Of a stretch of 48,588 nucleotides of DNA, positions 40,586 through 46,220 are shown one piece after another. Position 1 is the first letter of the stretch. The number at the start of each line of letters is the position of its first letter. The notes beneath the pieces were generated by a model that was not told the origin of the DNA, did not search any database, and saw nothing but the letters and a program-made list of their open reading frames with translations. The position numbers were made by a program, and so were the translations under genes. Source of the stretch: a bacterium (GTDB taxonomy: Bacteria; Vulcanimicrobiota; Vulcanimicrobiia; Eremiobacterales; Eremiobacteraceae); contig CADDZI010000014.1 of assembly GCA_902812405.1 (NCBI GenBank), positions 1-48,588 on the forward strand. The letters are read 5' to 3'.

Positions 40586-41044
40586 ATGACCATTGCTGGC
40601 CCATCCTCCAAGGGCGTGCGGACCTCGCGCGGATTCAGCCTCATCGAAGCATTGATCGCGATGGTCGTGCTCTTGCTGGCCGTTTTGGCCATGTTGTCGG
40701 TCGTGCCGTTCGGTTTTACAAACGTCCAGACGAATTCGATCGACGTCCAAGCCGTCGCCGTCGCCCAGCAGGCCTTGGATGACGAGCATAACGCCCTTCT
40801 GCACGCACTGCCCATGCCGGCGGCGACGACCGTGCCGATCGATCCCGGCCAGTCCTATCTTGCCGGCGCCAACCAAAACAGCAACTACGGGTCCTTCACG
40901 GTGACGCCGGACGGCTGCTCGTCCGTGCAGCTGATCGGCAGTTTGCTGAGCGGTGTCAACACGTACTCCTGTACGGCAACGGTCGCCTGGACGGAATCCG
41001 GGGCCGCCCGCCAAGTGACGGTCCAGAGTTATGTCACGAAGTAA
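40586..41044 (+). CDS. Type IV pilin-like protein (PilV-like)
   Basis: A 152-residue prepilin. The N-terminal signature SRG-FSLIEALIAMVVLLLAVLA has the peptidase cleavage after Gly16, a Phe at +1 and Glu at +5, as required for pilin assembly. The rest is a small domain with two Cys near the end. The I-E-A-L-I-A-M-V pattern is characteristic of minor pilins PilV/GspI. It is the first of three pilin-like genes; the next starts 14 bases before its stop. GAGG eight bases upstream of the ATG supports the start. Confidence 0.85.
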   Translation: MTIAGPSSKGVRTSRGFSLIEALIAMVVLLLAVLAMLSVVPFGFTNVQTNSIDVQAVAVAQQALDDEHNALLHALPMPAATTVPIDPGQSYLAGANQNSNYGSFTVTPDGCSSVQLIGSLLSGVNTYSCTATVAWTESGAARQVTVQSYVTK

Positions 41045-41684
41045 TCGTCGCCGCCGCGCCTACACGCTGGCCGAATTGCTCTCGGTCATGTTCGTGCTAT
41101 CCCTCACCCTCACGGCCGTCGCCGGCATCATCGGTCCGCTGCTGCGATCTCAAAGCCAGACCCAGGCCAAGGTGGACACCGTGCAGGCGGCGGCCATGGC
41201 CTTTTACCGCATTCAACGCGATCTGCGCAATTCGGACGCCGCGCAGTTATGGGTATGCACGATAGGCCCAAGTCCCACGTGCACCCGGCCAGCGGCGACT
41301 CTGACGACGACGCAAGCCATCGTCATCCAGACTGCGTACCAAAACGGCACGGGCCGGTTTCAACTGACGACAACGGGTGCGCCGTTCTGGCAAGGTGCAA
41401 CCATCTATTGGGTTGACAGCCAGGGCAACTTGGACGTCGCATTCGACCAACCCGGCTCGTATACGGTCGGCAACAACCTGACCCAGGCGGATGCCCAAAA
41501 CGCGGTCACCGACGTCACCACCCGCGGGGGCATGCAGTTGGCCCGCTTCCTGCAGCAGATTTCTCTGGCGGTCCCCGGCGCCGGCTTTGGACATTCCTTA
41601 TCCTTTCAGATGAAAGCACAGAGCACGGTGAACGGCGCGTACAACGAGACGACCTACGACACCGACGTTGAGACACGGAATTGA
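41031..41684 (+). CDS. Type IV pilin-like protein (PilW-like)
   Basis: A 217-residue prepilin. The leader is short and very basic (RSNRRRRA), cleaved before Tyr11, with Glu at +5 in YTLAELLSVMFVLSL. Position -1 is Ala rather than the usual Gly, which most but not all prepilin peptidases tolerate. The C-terminal domain has a Cys pair (WVCTIGPSPTCT). It overlaps the PilV-like gene by 14 bases. The order V, W, X is that of minor-pilin clusters needed to initiate pili. Confidence 0.82.
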   Translation: MSRSNRRRRAYTLAELLSVMFVLSLTLTAVAGIIGPLLRSQSQTQAKVDTVQAAAMAFYRIQRDLRNSDAAQLWVCTIGPSPTCTRPAATLTTTQAIVIQTAYQNGTGRFQLTTTGAPFWQGATIYWVDSQGNLDVAFDQPGSYTVGNNLTQADAQNAVTDVTTRGGMQLARFLQQISLAVPGAGFGHSLSFQMKAQSTVNGAYNETTYDTDVETRN

Positions 41685-41691
41685 GGTTGCC

Positions 41692-42894
41692 ATGATGCGG
41701 ATACTGCGATCCTCACGCACCCGGCCCCGGTCCCGGCAGCGGCGGGGTATCGCCCTGGTTATGACGTTGTTCATTGTCGTGATGCTGCTGCTGGTTGCGG
41801 CCGCGGTGTTGTCGAACACCTCGTACACGGCCAACAATGCCCTCAACGTCCAAATTAAGAATCAAATTTTCAACGCCGCGGAAGCGGGCGTCAACGTCGC
41901 GCAGTGGAATCTTGACCAGAACCTTGCCGCTCCCAGCGGGGCCTCGGGCACGACGACTGTCCAGGGCTACACCGCGCACTGGGCGATTGTCGCCAACGAG
42001 TTGACTCAAGGCGGCACCATCGTTTCCGATCCCGACCCGCAGTATGGCAGCCTGAGCGTGCCTGCAGGACAAGCTCTTTTGGCCGGCTGGGCGTCGGGTA
42101 TCATGGGCGGGCGCACCGTCTACGTCGAAGAAATGGTCCAACACGCACCTCCCACGCTATTGCCCAAAGGCGCCATTGTCTGCGGCGGAACCGGCGTCAT
42201 CGATCACCAGCAGATTACGGATACCTCCGGCAACCATAGCGCGGACATCCGGTGCGGCACCATCCTCGCCAGCGGCGGTGGCCAGATTCCGGACGGCAAC
42301 TCGTACGCCGTCGGCAGCGTGAATCAGATTACGGGATACGATGGTCAGGCCCATAAAAATGCCACGCCGCCGACGTTTCTCACACCGGGCCAACTCTCGA
42401 CCCTTCAGAATCAGGTGCTCACCCAAGCCCAGAGTGGCTCCCCGAACTTTTACACATCCGGTAACGTCACGGGGGGCACGATTGGATCCAGCGGGGCGAA
42501 CTGCGTCGCGTACATTGGCGGCAGCATCGTGCTCAACGGGAACGGCAGTTTGATTAACTACTGTGCCACGACGGTCGTTATGGGCGACGTGACAATCGGG
42601 GGCAACGCCAAGTACCAGGCCCTGCCGCCCGGTACGACTCACATTATGTACGTTTTTGGATCGAACGGGACCGTGCTCCACGGTACGCCCACGACCGAAG
42701 GCATCTTCTACGTCGCCAATGCCAACGTCACCATTGACGGCGGGGGCAACGGCAATTTTTCCGGCGCCATCATCACCCCCAATAACGTCACGATGAACGG
42801 TGGCGGAACCGCAAGCTTCGCGTACAACGGCACGCAGACCCCGCCGCCGGTTCCCAACAATAAGGTGATCCCGCTGGCGCAGTGGGAGTACTGA
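41692..42894 (+). CDS. PilX/GspK-like pilus protein with DUF7305-like C-terminal domain
   Basis: A 400-residue protein from ATG 41692 (ATG 41695 also possible), with GAGG overlapping the previous stop as ribosome site. RRG-IALVMTLFIVVMLLLVAAAVL gives the class-III signal, but without Glu at +5, as in GspK/PilX-type tip proteins. Helix 1 continues into FNAAEAGVNVAQWNLDQN. The C-terminal half (about 180-390) is Asn/Gly-rich, ending with strands of the type VTMNGGGTASFAYNG, the pattern of DUF7305. Such proteins likely cap or prime a pilus. No pilus ATPase or platform gene is in the window. Confidence 0.82.
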   Translation: MMRILRSSRTRPRSRQRRGIALVMTLFIVVMLLLVAAAVLSNTSYTANNALNVQIKNQIFNAAEAGVNVAQWNLDQNLAAPSGASGTTTVQGYTAHWAIVANELTQGGTIVSDPDPQYGSLSVPAGQALLAGWASGIMGGRTVYVEEMVQHAPPTLLPKGAIVCGGTGVIDHQQITDTSGNHSADIRCGTILASGGGQIPDGNSYAVGSVNQITGYDGQAHKNATPPTFLTPGQLSTLQNQVLTQAQSGSPNFYTSGNVTGGTIGSSGANCVAYIGGSIVLNGNGSLINYCATTVVMGDVTIGGNAKYQALPPGTTHIMYVFGSNGTVLHGTPTTEGIFYVANANVTIDGGGNGNFSGAIITPNNVTMNGGGTASFAYNGTQTPPPVPNNKVIPLAQWEY

Positions 42895-43098
42895 CCGGTA
42901 TCTCCCTCACCCGATGGAGGCCCCCCTGGAATCCGCAGCCGACGGCCGTTTTATGCTCGGCTGACGGCCGACCTTTTGGGGAGACGCAACTCGCAGCGCC
43001 CTCCTTCATCCACCTGCCGCGCTAACCCGTTATGAGCTGTGGAGCAGCGGCCTGCTGCCCCTTTTCTCCTTAGGGCGATGTCCATTGAAAGGGATTGT

Positions 43099-43950
43099 AT
43101 GGACTCGAAACTCCGGGATTCGTTTCGCGAAACGGGAGAACTCGTAACCGAGTTGTCGGTCAAGGCTAGTGAAGCGCAGGCGCGCGGCCTGTCGCGCCGA
43201 TCTTTCGTGTCGTCCGCGCTGCTGGCGACCGGGGCGGCGGTCCTCGGGTCGAGCGTCGCGGCGGATGCCGCCGTGCGGCCTGTGCTGCGCTCGGCTCTGG
43301 TCCCCACTACGACGACCAGCAAGTGCTCGTGCACCCCGACGACCATCTTCAGCATCGCCGCCACGGCCGAGTTGCTCGCGACGACGATGTACTATCGTGC
43401 ATTGGCCCTGCCGACCGACCTTCCCGACGTCAACAGCATTGCCAACCGCAATTACTTCCAAGCTGCGCTCACCGAGGAGTACCTCCACTACGAGCTGCTG
43501 ACCAGTCTGGGCGGCAAGGCCCTGGCCACGCAGTTCTTCTTCCCGACCGGTATGTTCACGAATGAGACGACCTTCTTCAACACGCTGGACGCTCTCGAGA
43601 CGGCCTTTATCGCCGCCTATCTGGCGGCGGCCCGCGAGTTCAGCGGCGCCGTCTCGTCGGTGATCACAAAACCCAATCCCGTGGTCATCGGGGCAGCGGT
43701 GCAAATCGCCGCCGTTGAGGGCGAACATCGCGTCCTGGGCCGCGTGGCCGCGGGCGTCAACCCGCCCAACAACCGCTATCTGGAATCCGGAGAGTTCCAG
43801 TGCGTCGAGGACGCGGCGGACGCGCTCCATCCGTTCCTGGCGGGCGGGGCTGGGTTCTCGGGCCCATTCCATGTCCCGTCCAAGAGCGAGGTGAATAGCG
43901 CGGCCCAGCCCTACGGGTTCAGCTTCTTCCCACCCGAACCCGTCGCCTAA
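43099..43950 (+). CDS. Tat-exported ferritin-like protein
   Basis: A 283-residue protein from ATG 43099 (AGGGA four bases upstream). An N-terminal tail of about 32 residues precedes the twin-arginine motif SRRSFV (33-38), a hydrophobic stretch (ALLATGAAVLG) and an AADA-type cleavage site. The mature part is a four-helix bundle with ferritin-like ligand spacing: Glu in ATAELLATTMYY, Glu/His in EEYLHYELL, Glu in LETAFIAAYLAAAREF and E-x-x-H in VEGEHRVLGR. It probably folds in the cytoplasm with metal before export. A Cys pair (KCSCTP) precedes the bundle. Physiological role (metal binding, oxygen or stress protection) is unknown. Confidence 0.82.
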   Translation: MDSKLRDSFRETGELVTELSVKASEAQARGLSRRSFVSSALLATGAAVLGSSVAADAAVRPVLRSALVPTTTTSKCSCTPTTIFSIAATAELLATTMYYRALALPTDLPDVNSIANRNYFQAALTEEYLHYELLTSLGGKALATQFFFPTGMFTNETTFFNTLDALETAFIAAYLAAAREFSGAVSSVITKPNPVVIGAAVQIAAVEGEHRVLGRVAAGVNPPNNRYLESGEFQCVEDAADALHPFLAGGAGFSGPFHVPSKSEVNSAAQPYGFSFFPPEPVA

Positions 43951-44109: not shown

Positions 44110-44508
44110 TCAGGCACGACCTTTTGACGCAGCGCGGGCCGTCCGGGTGCGGTCTGCCGCACGCAGCACCTCGCGCAGTACGACCGCCTGATTGTGCTGT
44201 TCGTCGCGCGCCGAGTAGACAAGCGTCAAGACGGAATGGTCCCCCGCTGCGGTCAGGAGCTCGCGCACGCGGCGCCGTGCGGCAGGCCGGCGCAGTTCGG
44301 CTCGGTACCGTCGCTGAAATTCCGTCCAGCGCTTCGGTTCGTGGCCAAACCACTTGCGCAGCGGCGCACTGGGCGCGAGGTCCCGCCACCAGCCCTTAAC
44401 CTTGAGTTGGTCTTTGCTCAGTCCTCGGGGCCACACTCTGTCCACGAGGGCCCTATATCCGTCTCGCGGATTCGGGCGTTCGTACGCGCGTTTGATCGCG
44501 ATCTTCAT
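44110..44508 (-). CDS. DUF488 family protein
   Basis: A 132-residue protein from ATG 44508, with AGGTGA just upstream on the minus strand. Typical DUF488/YeaO blocks: IKRAYERPNPRDGYRALVDRVWPRGLSKD and WRDLAPSAPLRKWFGHEPKRW, then LVYSARDEQHNQAVVLREVL. The family is small, soluble and functionally uncharacterised; its RVWPRG motif is highly conserved. Basic C-terminal tail. An ATG at 44547 would add 13 residues not seen in relatives. Confidence 0.92.
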   Translation of the reverse strand: MKIAIKRAYERPNPRDGYRALVDRVWPRGLSKDQLKVKGWWRDLAPSAPLRKWFGHEPKRWTEFQRRYRAELRRPAARRRVRELLTAAGDHSVLTLVYSARDEQHNQAVVLREVLRAADRTRTARAASKGRA

Positions 44509-44678
44509 GCCGTCACCTGCCCTCCTGCCCGTGACACGGGTGTCCAAGACGCTTCTCCGGGTGTGCGTCCATGCATCGCCTAGTTTGAGTCTTACGTCGA
44601 GAGCTCTTGTCTAGCTTTTGTCCATATGAGGGCCAATCTTTTTTTCACAACATAGCGACACTTCCCCCAGCCGGCACG

Positions 44679-44788: not shown

Positions 44789-45208
44789 ATGCCTGCAACC
44801 GGTCTTCACGATATTGTCGAAACGGCCGTCGGGGCCGGATCCTTCTCAACTCTTACCGCTGCGCTCAAAGCTGCCGGCCTGGTGGACGCTCTGAAGGGCC
44901 CCGGCCCGTTCACCGTCTTTGCGCCGAATGACGATGCATTCGCACAATTGCCCGCCGGCACGCTCGACAGTCTTCTCAAAGACATTCCCAAGCTCACTGC
45001 GATCCTCCGGTACCACGTCGTGAGCGGGAGTTACGCGTCTTCGGACGTCAAGGCAAAGACGGTGCTCAAGACACTCCAGGGAGAGACAGTGACCCTCGAG
45101 CCCTCGAACAACACGGTAAAAGTGAACGACGCAACGGTCATCCAACCGGACGTTCGCGCCTCCAATGGCATCATCCATGTCATCGACCGCGTGGTCCTGC
45201 CGGCGTAG
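44789..45208 (+). CDS. Fasciclin (FAS1) domain protein
   Basis: A 139-residue single FAS1 domain from ATG 44789, with a strong AAAGGAG eight bases upstream. Motifs: [24 protein letters not shown] (alpha-helical start), [19 protein letters not shown] (H1 box), [11 protein letters not shown] (YH motif), and [14 protein letters not shown] at the end (H2 box). Most bacterial FAS1 proteins have a signal peptide; from this start there is none. A GTG at 44708 would add 27 residues ([10 protein letters not shown]...), not a clear signal either. The product may be cytoplasmic, or the extracellular address may be missed. FAS1 domains mediate adhesion or small-ligand binding. Confidence 0.9.
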
Positions 45209-45299: not shown

Positions 45300-46220
45300 A
45301 TGACGAATTACCGCATCCTGGGCGTCGCCCGCCTCACCGGTCTCACGACGGACACCATCCGCAAGTGGGAGCGCCGGTATTGCGTCGTCACGCCGCGACG
45401 CGATGAGCGGGGTATCCGACGCTATACGGACGCCGATCTGCGACGCCTCCAGGACCTTCGCCATGCAACCGATCTTGGGTACCCTATCGGCGAAGTCGCC
45501 CGCCTGACGCCCCAGGAGCTCAGCGAGCTGCTGCGCAGCAAGCCTCTGCCTGCCGTTCCTTCCGCTGTGCGCCGCAAGAGGAACCTGCCGGATGTCTTCA
45601 CGCGCGCGGTCTTGACGGGTCTTGCCCGCTACGACGGCGAGCAGGTGGACCGCATGCTGTCGGCGGCGGCCCGTCTCCTGCCGGCCTCTGAATTCGTCCT
45701 CGATCTCATGTCGCCGCTGTTTGCGCACATCGGGCGGGCGTGGCGCTCGGGCAGCTTGGAGATCGGGCAAGAGCATCTCTTCTCGGCCGTCGCGCGGTCC
45801 GTCTTAGGCAACCTCATACGCACATACCCGCCGCGTCCGGATGCACCGCTGGCGGTTTTTGCAACGCCGGCCGGCGAACCCCACGAGTTCGGTGTGCTCC
45901 TTGCCGCCATGCTCGCCGCCAGTGAAGGTCTGCGCGTGCAGTACCTGGGACCCAATATGCCGGTTGCCTCCATCGTGCAGACGGCGGAGCAGGTGCGTGC
46001 GCAGGCTCTTGTGTTGGGCGTGGTTCGCAGCCGCCAACGCAGCTCGCTCAGCCGTGCGCTGGTGAGTTTGGCGGCGGCGTTGCCGGATCGCATTGAGTTA
46101 TGGCTGGGAGGCAAGGCCGCGCAAAAAGACCTTATAAGCCGCCTGCAACGCCCCGCCACGGCCGTGCCGACGCTGCCGGATTTTTACCGGCACCTGCGCT
46201 CTCGCCTGAGCGGCTCGTAG
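45300..46220 (+). CDS. MerR-family regulator with cobalamin-binding domain (CarH-like)
   Basis: A 306-residue regulator: MerR-type winged-helix DNA-binding domain (about 1-75, with TTDTIRKWERRY and RRYTDADL), a helical bundle (about 90-175) and a B12-binding Rossmann domain (about 180-300). The capping motif of CarH photoreceptors, W-x9-EH, is present as Trp148 and Glu158-His159. The lower-ligand motif E-x-H-x-x-G is at 193-198 (His195). The residue after the Trp is Arg149, where CarH has the His that binds cobalt after light exposure. CarH represses carotenoid genes in the dark; its target here is unknown. The neighbours (fasciclin, permease) are not typical CarH targets. Confidence 0.85.
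   Translation: MTNYRILGVARLTGLTTDTIRKWERRYCVVTPRRDERGIRRYTDADLRRLQDLRHATDLGYPIGEVARLTPQELSELLRSKPLPAVPSAVRRKRNLPDVFTRAVLTGLARYDGEQVDRMLSAAARLLPASEFVLDLMSPLFAHIGRAWRSGSLEIGQEHLFSAVARSVLGNLIRTYPPRPDAPLAVFATPAGEPHEFGVLLAAMLAASEGLRVQYLGPNMPVASIVQTAEQVRAQALVLGVVRSRQRSSLSRALVSLAAALPDRIELWLGGKAAQKDLISRLQRPATAVPTLPDFYRHLRSRLSGS

Follow-up and report, generated by a model that had tools for sequence, protein, structure and literature searches.

The stretch of DNA analysed here (the window, 48.6 kb, contig C14) belongs to a 2.32-Mb genome that is 96.65% complete. The genes and features that concern us lie towards its end:

44110..44509, minus strand: divergent DUF488 gene (PF22752, 8.5e-36; start at 44509 judged by eye)
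44596..44606, minus strand: possible, weak third repeat GAGCTCTCGAC (3/5 to nAnnTnnACAn)
44607..44628, minus strand: predicted CarH-type operator of two tandem 11-bp repeats, CATATGGACAA AAGCTAGACAA (both 5/5 to nAnnTnnACAn)
44789..45208, plus strand: fasciclin-domain gene directly upstream of the regulator (PF02469, 7.9e-42)
45300..46220, plus strand: CarH/LitR-like MerR regulator with an AdoCbl-binding domain (306 aa, ATG start)

The fasciclin gene begins with an ATG at 44789, preceded by AAAGGAG, and is the sole match to PF02469 in the genome. Its product has 139 aa and, judged by eye, no evident signal peptide. The gene ends 91 bp before the start of the regulator, on the same (plus) strand. 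Order and strand of the pair are kept in the closest relative, G004, and in G140, which is from another family; in Eleftheria terrae (L045) the fasciclin and regulator genes also lie side by side but are transcribed divergently. Within the window's own family (14 genomes) a fasciclin gene is found in two, G000 and G004, and these are also the only carriers of the regulator (E <= 1e-12). The locus showed no sigma-70-like promoter. Elsewhere in the window, three ORFs at 40586-42894 have N-termini that, by eye, suggest pilins or membrane anchors (for example RGFSLIEAL), and a ferritin-like protein (PF13668) with an apparent twin-arginine signal, also judged by eye, is encoded at 43039-43950.

Domains and cobalamin pocket of the regulator

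The regulator matches PF13411 (MerR_1, 1.2e-16, Pfam profiles). Further matches are to PF02607 (B12-binding_2, the four-helix domain, 3.7e-8) and PF02310 (B12-binding, the Rossmann domain, 1.8e-7), the latter at 31.5 bits, slightly below the cutoff of 32.1. The top matches in the PDB are chains of Thermus CarH (3whp, 2.9e-22; 5c8d, 3.6e-22; phmmer). The phmmer alignment places Trp148 at Trp131 of Thermus CarH, Arg149 at His132, Glu158-His159 at Glu141-His142 and His195 at His177 (residue numbers of Thermus CarH follow PMC11796333 and PMC10442372). A first-pass annotation of this DNA had equated Trp148, Glu158-His159 and His195 with the residues that hold AdoCbl in Thermus CarH and had read the equivalent of His132 as Arg149; aligned at all five Thermus positions, the proteins correspond exactly as it said. 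Trp148, Glu158, His159 and His195 do not vary across the 22 rows of our alignment A1, so the match of pocket residues goes far beyond chance. Together with the domains, these invariant residues support the CarH-like AdoCbl pocket that the annotation had proposed. Single-protein structure prediction of the regulator was poor (mean pLDDT 53.8).

The short motifs give a similar picture. The group of AdoCbl photoreceptors defined by SignatureFinder has a four-element signature (PMC11796333), and the regulator carries each element: GxxW (GRAW, residues 145-148), EH (158-159), GxxH with the lower axial His (GEPH, 192-195) and GxxxP (GPNMP, 217-221). The recognition-helix motif RxWERRY of the CarH MerR domain (PMC9304148) is present as RKWERRY (21-27), and Wx9EH runs from Trp148 to Glu158-His159. 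The classic B12 motif ExHx2Gx41SxT/Vx22-27GG is incomplete at its Ser, which is Gly240 (46017-46019), with ExHxxG, the spacing, Val242 and GG 270-271 intact. All 8 A1 rows from the window's class have Gly here and the other 14 have Ser.

The exchange of this Ser would suit a repressor that, like CarA, no longer needs its cofactor, as would the occurrence in our set of MerR homologues without an intact pocket (L011, L039, L042, L046, L049 and L054). However, the regulator keeps the whole of Wx9EH and the axial His, whereas CarA as described in PMC9304148 is without the Trp of that motif, and B12 independence of the window protein is very improbable. Among the homologues, L011, L042, L046, L049 and L054 combine a MerR domain with a B12-domain-like part in which the Trp, the Glu-His or the axial His is missing, and are possibly B12-independent.

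The best NCBIfam family for the regulator is NF052513 (CarH), with a score of 120.9 bits against an equivalog cutoff of 400 bits. Thermus CarH has an Arg/Asp pair that we take to be a salt bridge of the dimer; in the phmmer alignment these positions are Pro194 and Asn219. CtMerR likewise has no such pair (Leu and Asn in its PDB sequence), although its tetramer forms all the same (PMC11796333). In view of Gly240, Pro194/Asn219 and the 120.9 of 400 bits, we class the regulator as a CarH/LitR-like protein of the CtMerR type and not as a CarH in the strict sense.

The residue after the tryptophan and the light state

The residue that follows the Trp was tallied in 41 aligned homologues picked by similarity to the window protein, mostly from genomes of the phylum (149 genomes were searched) together with 13 plasmid loci out of 156 matching plasmid records. 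Two of 32 Thermus records were used, and the set holds no myxobacteria. A collection of genome contigs added only 2 relatives, and viral contigs gave 3 short MerR matches, left unaligned. Loci that were HTH-only or methionine-synthase-like (L003, L018, L020, L021, L023-L032) were excluded. Of the 41 rows, 23 combine a MerR domain with an intact pocket (Trp, Glu-His, axial His), 10 keep the pocket and have no recognised MerR motif, 7 have a MerR domain and a pocket that is not intact, and 1 has neither.

Across the 23 intact MerR rows, a taxonomically uneven and unweighted sample, the position is occupied most often by Ala (8 rows), then by Glu (5), Arg (4) and His (2), with single rows of Gly, Leu, Gln and Thr. 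Both His rows are from Thermus, and the Arg rows are the window protein, its G004 orthologue (64% identity), the G140 protein and a Caballeronia plasmid protein (L052). Where the MerR motif was not recognised the residue is Gln in 7 rows and Glu in 3; one of these rows, L041, covers only the C-terminal half of its gene, which a contig end interrupts, and L010 is the N half. In the published motif Wx9EH the x stands for any residue, and a His after the Trp is not unique to Thermus, since it is present in many myxobacterial CarH proteins (PMC9304148).

Published light chemistry is available for a protein with the same substitution. The cobalamin domain of CtMerR has Arg at the His132 position (PMC11796333), and Trp-Arg is confirmed in its PDB sequence (8JBS). 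CtMerR binds AdoCbl and responds to green light of 530 nm by passing from tetramer to monomer; it required more light than three other proteins tested (PMC11796333). In its light structure, obtained anaerobically and without monomerisation, the cofactor is aquo/hydroxocobalamin, contacted by Glu through a water and free of bis-His ligation, and both the Glu and the His of the EH pair rotate under light (PMC11796333). The photocobilins SasPcob and AbDPcob, also light-responsive, have Gln and Tyr respectively at this position (PMC11796333), again confirmed in their PDB sequences. In Thermus CarH itself the H132A variant was still mostly tetrameric in light according to one study (PMC10442372), which cites an earlier report that it does disassemble. 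The position therefore matters in Thermus CarH, yet natural proteins without the His do switch, as CtMerR demonstrates.

The Arg149 difference is thus real but ordinary, since Arg also follows the Trp in CtMerR, a proven light sensor. The first-pass annotation had argued that the light state should differ from that of Thermus; this holds insofar as bis-His ligation through Arg149 is impossible, but the missing His is no sign of an unusual photoreceptor. It had also named frequent Arg at the His132 position in confirmed light-responsive homologues as evidence against its view, and the published work on CtMerR supplies such evidence. One of the two outcomes it envisaged was a photoreceptor with another ligand after light, which comes close to the known state of CtMerR, although the missing His on which it was based is commonplace. 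A side chain such as His159 or Arg149 might serve as that upper cobalt ligand: His159 is invariant in A1, and the rotation of both EH residues in CtMerR would agree with such a role. The aquo/hydroxocobalamin and Glu-water contact in the CtMerR light structure, anaerobic and without monomerisation as it is, speak against it, and ligation by a side chain is quite improbable. The light state most likely resembles that of CtMerR, by analogy with its structure.

The other outcome envisaged was a sensor of AdoCbl supply, which would repress when AdoCbl is plentiful and make no physiological use of light. The removal of the bis-His ligand by Arg149, the change of two oligomer-interface residues of Thermus CarH and the poor switching of H132A in one study (PMC10442372) would be in keeping with it. 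Loss of the His is nevertheless no pointer in this direction, the position being variable and CtMerR, with its Arg, being a light-driven switch (PMC11796333). Supply of B12 has a sensor of its own in this genome, which contains one cobalamin riboswitch. AdoCbl can probably be made by the organism, as a CobA/BtuR adenosyltransferase is encoded; an adenosyltransferase of the PduO type was not found in the genome. Neither fasciclin nor DUF488 is known as a B12 gene.

The neighbours of several relatives from the class also argue for light rather than supply. Relatives in G032 and G016 adjoin genes for phytoene synthase and an amine oxidase (crtI-like), and that in G036 adjoins a photolyase. In G032 (L060, 8726-15719) crtI-like, phytoene synthase, acyltransferase and glycosyltransferase ORFs share their strand with the regulator relative, whose gene lies approximately 6-7 kb downstream of the crtI-like gene. 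Epimerase- or NmrA-like NAD-binding proteins are neighbours in G032, G016, G122, G074 and G004, and the ORFs scanned around the relatives in G021 and G083 included no light-type gene; the scan did not take in G131, G134, G135, G139 and G089. In G137, from another family, the neighbours are amine oxidase, DUF1365, CMAS and desaturase genes, and an Azoarcus plasmid locus is similar. Thermus carH has crtB, phr and an NDUFA9-type gene beside it. The window's genome has two photolyase and three SQS_PSY matches. Taken with the light response of CtMerR, this context makes a supply sensor unlikely.

A predicted operator ahead of the fasciclin gene

CarH operators have been described as tandem 11-bp direct repeats with the consensus nAnnTnnACAn (PMC8156234). 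The two units at 44607-44628 are the only tandem pair within the 48.6-kb window in which both score 5, and their score was equalled in 0 of 1000 dinucleotide shuffles of the region before the fasciclin gene. As a control, the carH-crtB gap of Thermus yielded three perfect units. The predicted operator lies 160 bp ahead of the fasciclin start and 97 bp ahead of the DUF488 start; given the shorter distance, the DUF488 gene may be its target, or could share it with the fasciclin gene.

A stricter pattern, for which the window site was one of the sources, matches the 2.32-Mb genome exactly only once, at the window operator itself, a result that is partly circular for that reason. Allowing up to 2 mismatches adds one match in this genome (C48, inside overlapping frames), and the same pattern run backwards as a control also has one. 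Besides the window's genome, 15 genomes of the phylum carry the regulator; in the 10 of these that were scanned, the window-derived pattern has 4 matches with up to 1 mismatch, and the backward control 1. A match in G032 lies immediately upstream of the crtI-like gene, one in G140 precedes the fasciclin-regulator pair, and two on another contig of G140 (C49; L086, 3744-3940) stand before a small ORF and a short-chain dehydrogenase. The published consensus was not significant before the fasciclin gene of G004 (two units, 278/500 shuffles), where there is weak 11-bp self-similarity only (29/1000), nor in the fasciclin-regulator gap of Eleftheria (627/1000). In G138 the two-unit consensus was not significant (113/500), and the three-unit consensus was reached in 30/500 shuffles.

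For a comparison across the phylum, 420 bp upstream of the domain was scanned for tandem pairs at all 27 fasciclin genes found. Pairs scoring 9-10 of 10 precede 4 of 9 fasciclin genes where the genome carries the regulator vs 0 of 17 where it does not, the threshold of 9 having been fixed after the first 12 of the 27 genes had been viewed. The one-sided Fisher probability is approximately 0.008, calculated by hand with this post hoc threshold and with the two G139 genes taken as independent. The four positive genes are those of G000, G140 and two in G139, whose scores were reached in 0, 2, 1 and 18 of 500 shuffles, respectively. The remaining 5 of the 9, that of G004 included, have no operator by this measure, and sites as weak as the candidate in G004 could escape the pattern. 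The best of the 17 score 8 (G114, G025 and G069b, the last reached in 28/500 shuffles). A score of 8 was also obtained in G138; the B12 protein beside its fasciclin gene has no MerR domain, and the genome was counted in neither group. Of the two positive G139 genes (L089, L090), both preceded by CarH-type tandem repeats, one has two separate arrays. The fold assignment, the pocket residues, the gene pair and the operator-like repeats can all be read from the DNA itself.

Proposed mechanism and comparison with known systems

We consider the regulator to be a CarH/class I LitR-type repressor that senses light through AdoCbl, in the Arg variant of CtMerR, with a probability of about 0.74. From the residues and repeats described above we infer AdoCbl binding, a light response, a change of oligomer and repression. 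In the dark, His195 would bind AdoCbl in the base-off form, Trp148 and Glu158-His159 would keep its adenosyl group in place, and the oligomer would bind the tandem repeats at 44607-44628 and repress the fasciclin-regulator pair, perhaps together with the divergent DUF488 gene. Light would break the Co-C bond. Since residue 149 is Arg, no bis-His ligation through this position is expected, so that hydroxo/aquo-cobalamin would remain in the pocket, perhaps touching Glu158 through a water molecule in the manner of the CtMerR light structure. The oligomer would then fall apart and fasciclin would be made.

The regulator thus seems, from gene order and repeats, to control the adjacent fasciclin gene, a modestly new target. 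The fasciclin protein RSP_1409 of Rhodobacter sphaeroides appears in a table of PMC7074977 as induced by singlet oxygen (log2 2.8 and 4.5) and as part of the RpoE regulon; no paper linking fasciclin to CarH or LitR was found in a search that left subscription journals mostly outside. We would give even odds to a wider proposal, that the B12 photoreceptor of this phylum directly controls fasciclin proteins as a light-induced protection, its recognisable regulon having here shrunk to one operator (that of the fasciclin-regulator pair) with the phytoene-synthase-like and photolyase genes outside it. The analysis removes a false lead, the idea that a regulator without His132 has given up sensing light. 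It adds sequence support to the view that bis-His ligation in the light, as in Thermus CarH, is not a general rule, and supplies a concrete predicted operator and output, fasciclin, for a regulator of the CarH/LitR type.

Among known systems, the photocobilins SasPcob and AbDPcob (PDB 8J2W/X/Y) share with the regulator an AdoCbl pocket without His at position 132, but they are not MerR regulators and contain a biliverdin-binding region (PMC11796333). Myxobacterial CarH has the same Wx9EH and axial-His B12 motif; many of these proteins have Trp-His, and CarA is without the Trp (PMC9304148), whereas the regulator has Trp-Arg. Thermus thermophilus CarH (PDB 5C8D/E/F) agrees in domain order, in the equivalents of Trp131, Glu141, His142 and His177, and in the 11-bp tandem type of operator, which is predicted for the window. 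Its His132 and B12-motif Ser are Arg149 and Gly240 in the regulator, and the presumed dimer pair Arg/Asp is Pro/Asn. Thermus carH adjoins crtB and phr, whereas the window regulator adjoins fasciclin. CtMerR (WP_157850694; PDB 8JBS, 8JBT) is distant in sequence (phmmer 47 bits, E 2e-11, residues 127-238) and keeps the Ser that is Gly240 in the regulator. Nevertheless, both proteins join a MerR domain to an AdoCbl domain, and they share GxxW, EH, GxxH and GxxxP, the Arg after the Trp and the Asn in LGPN-P.
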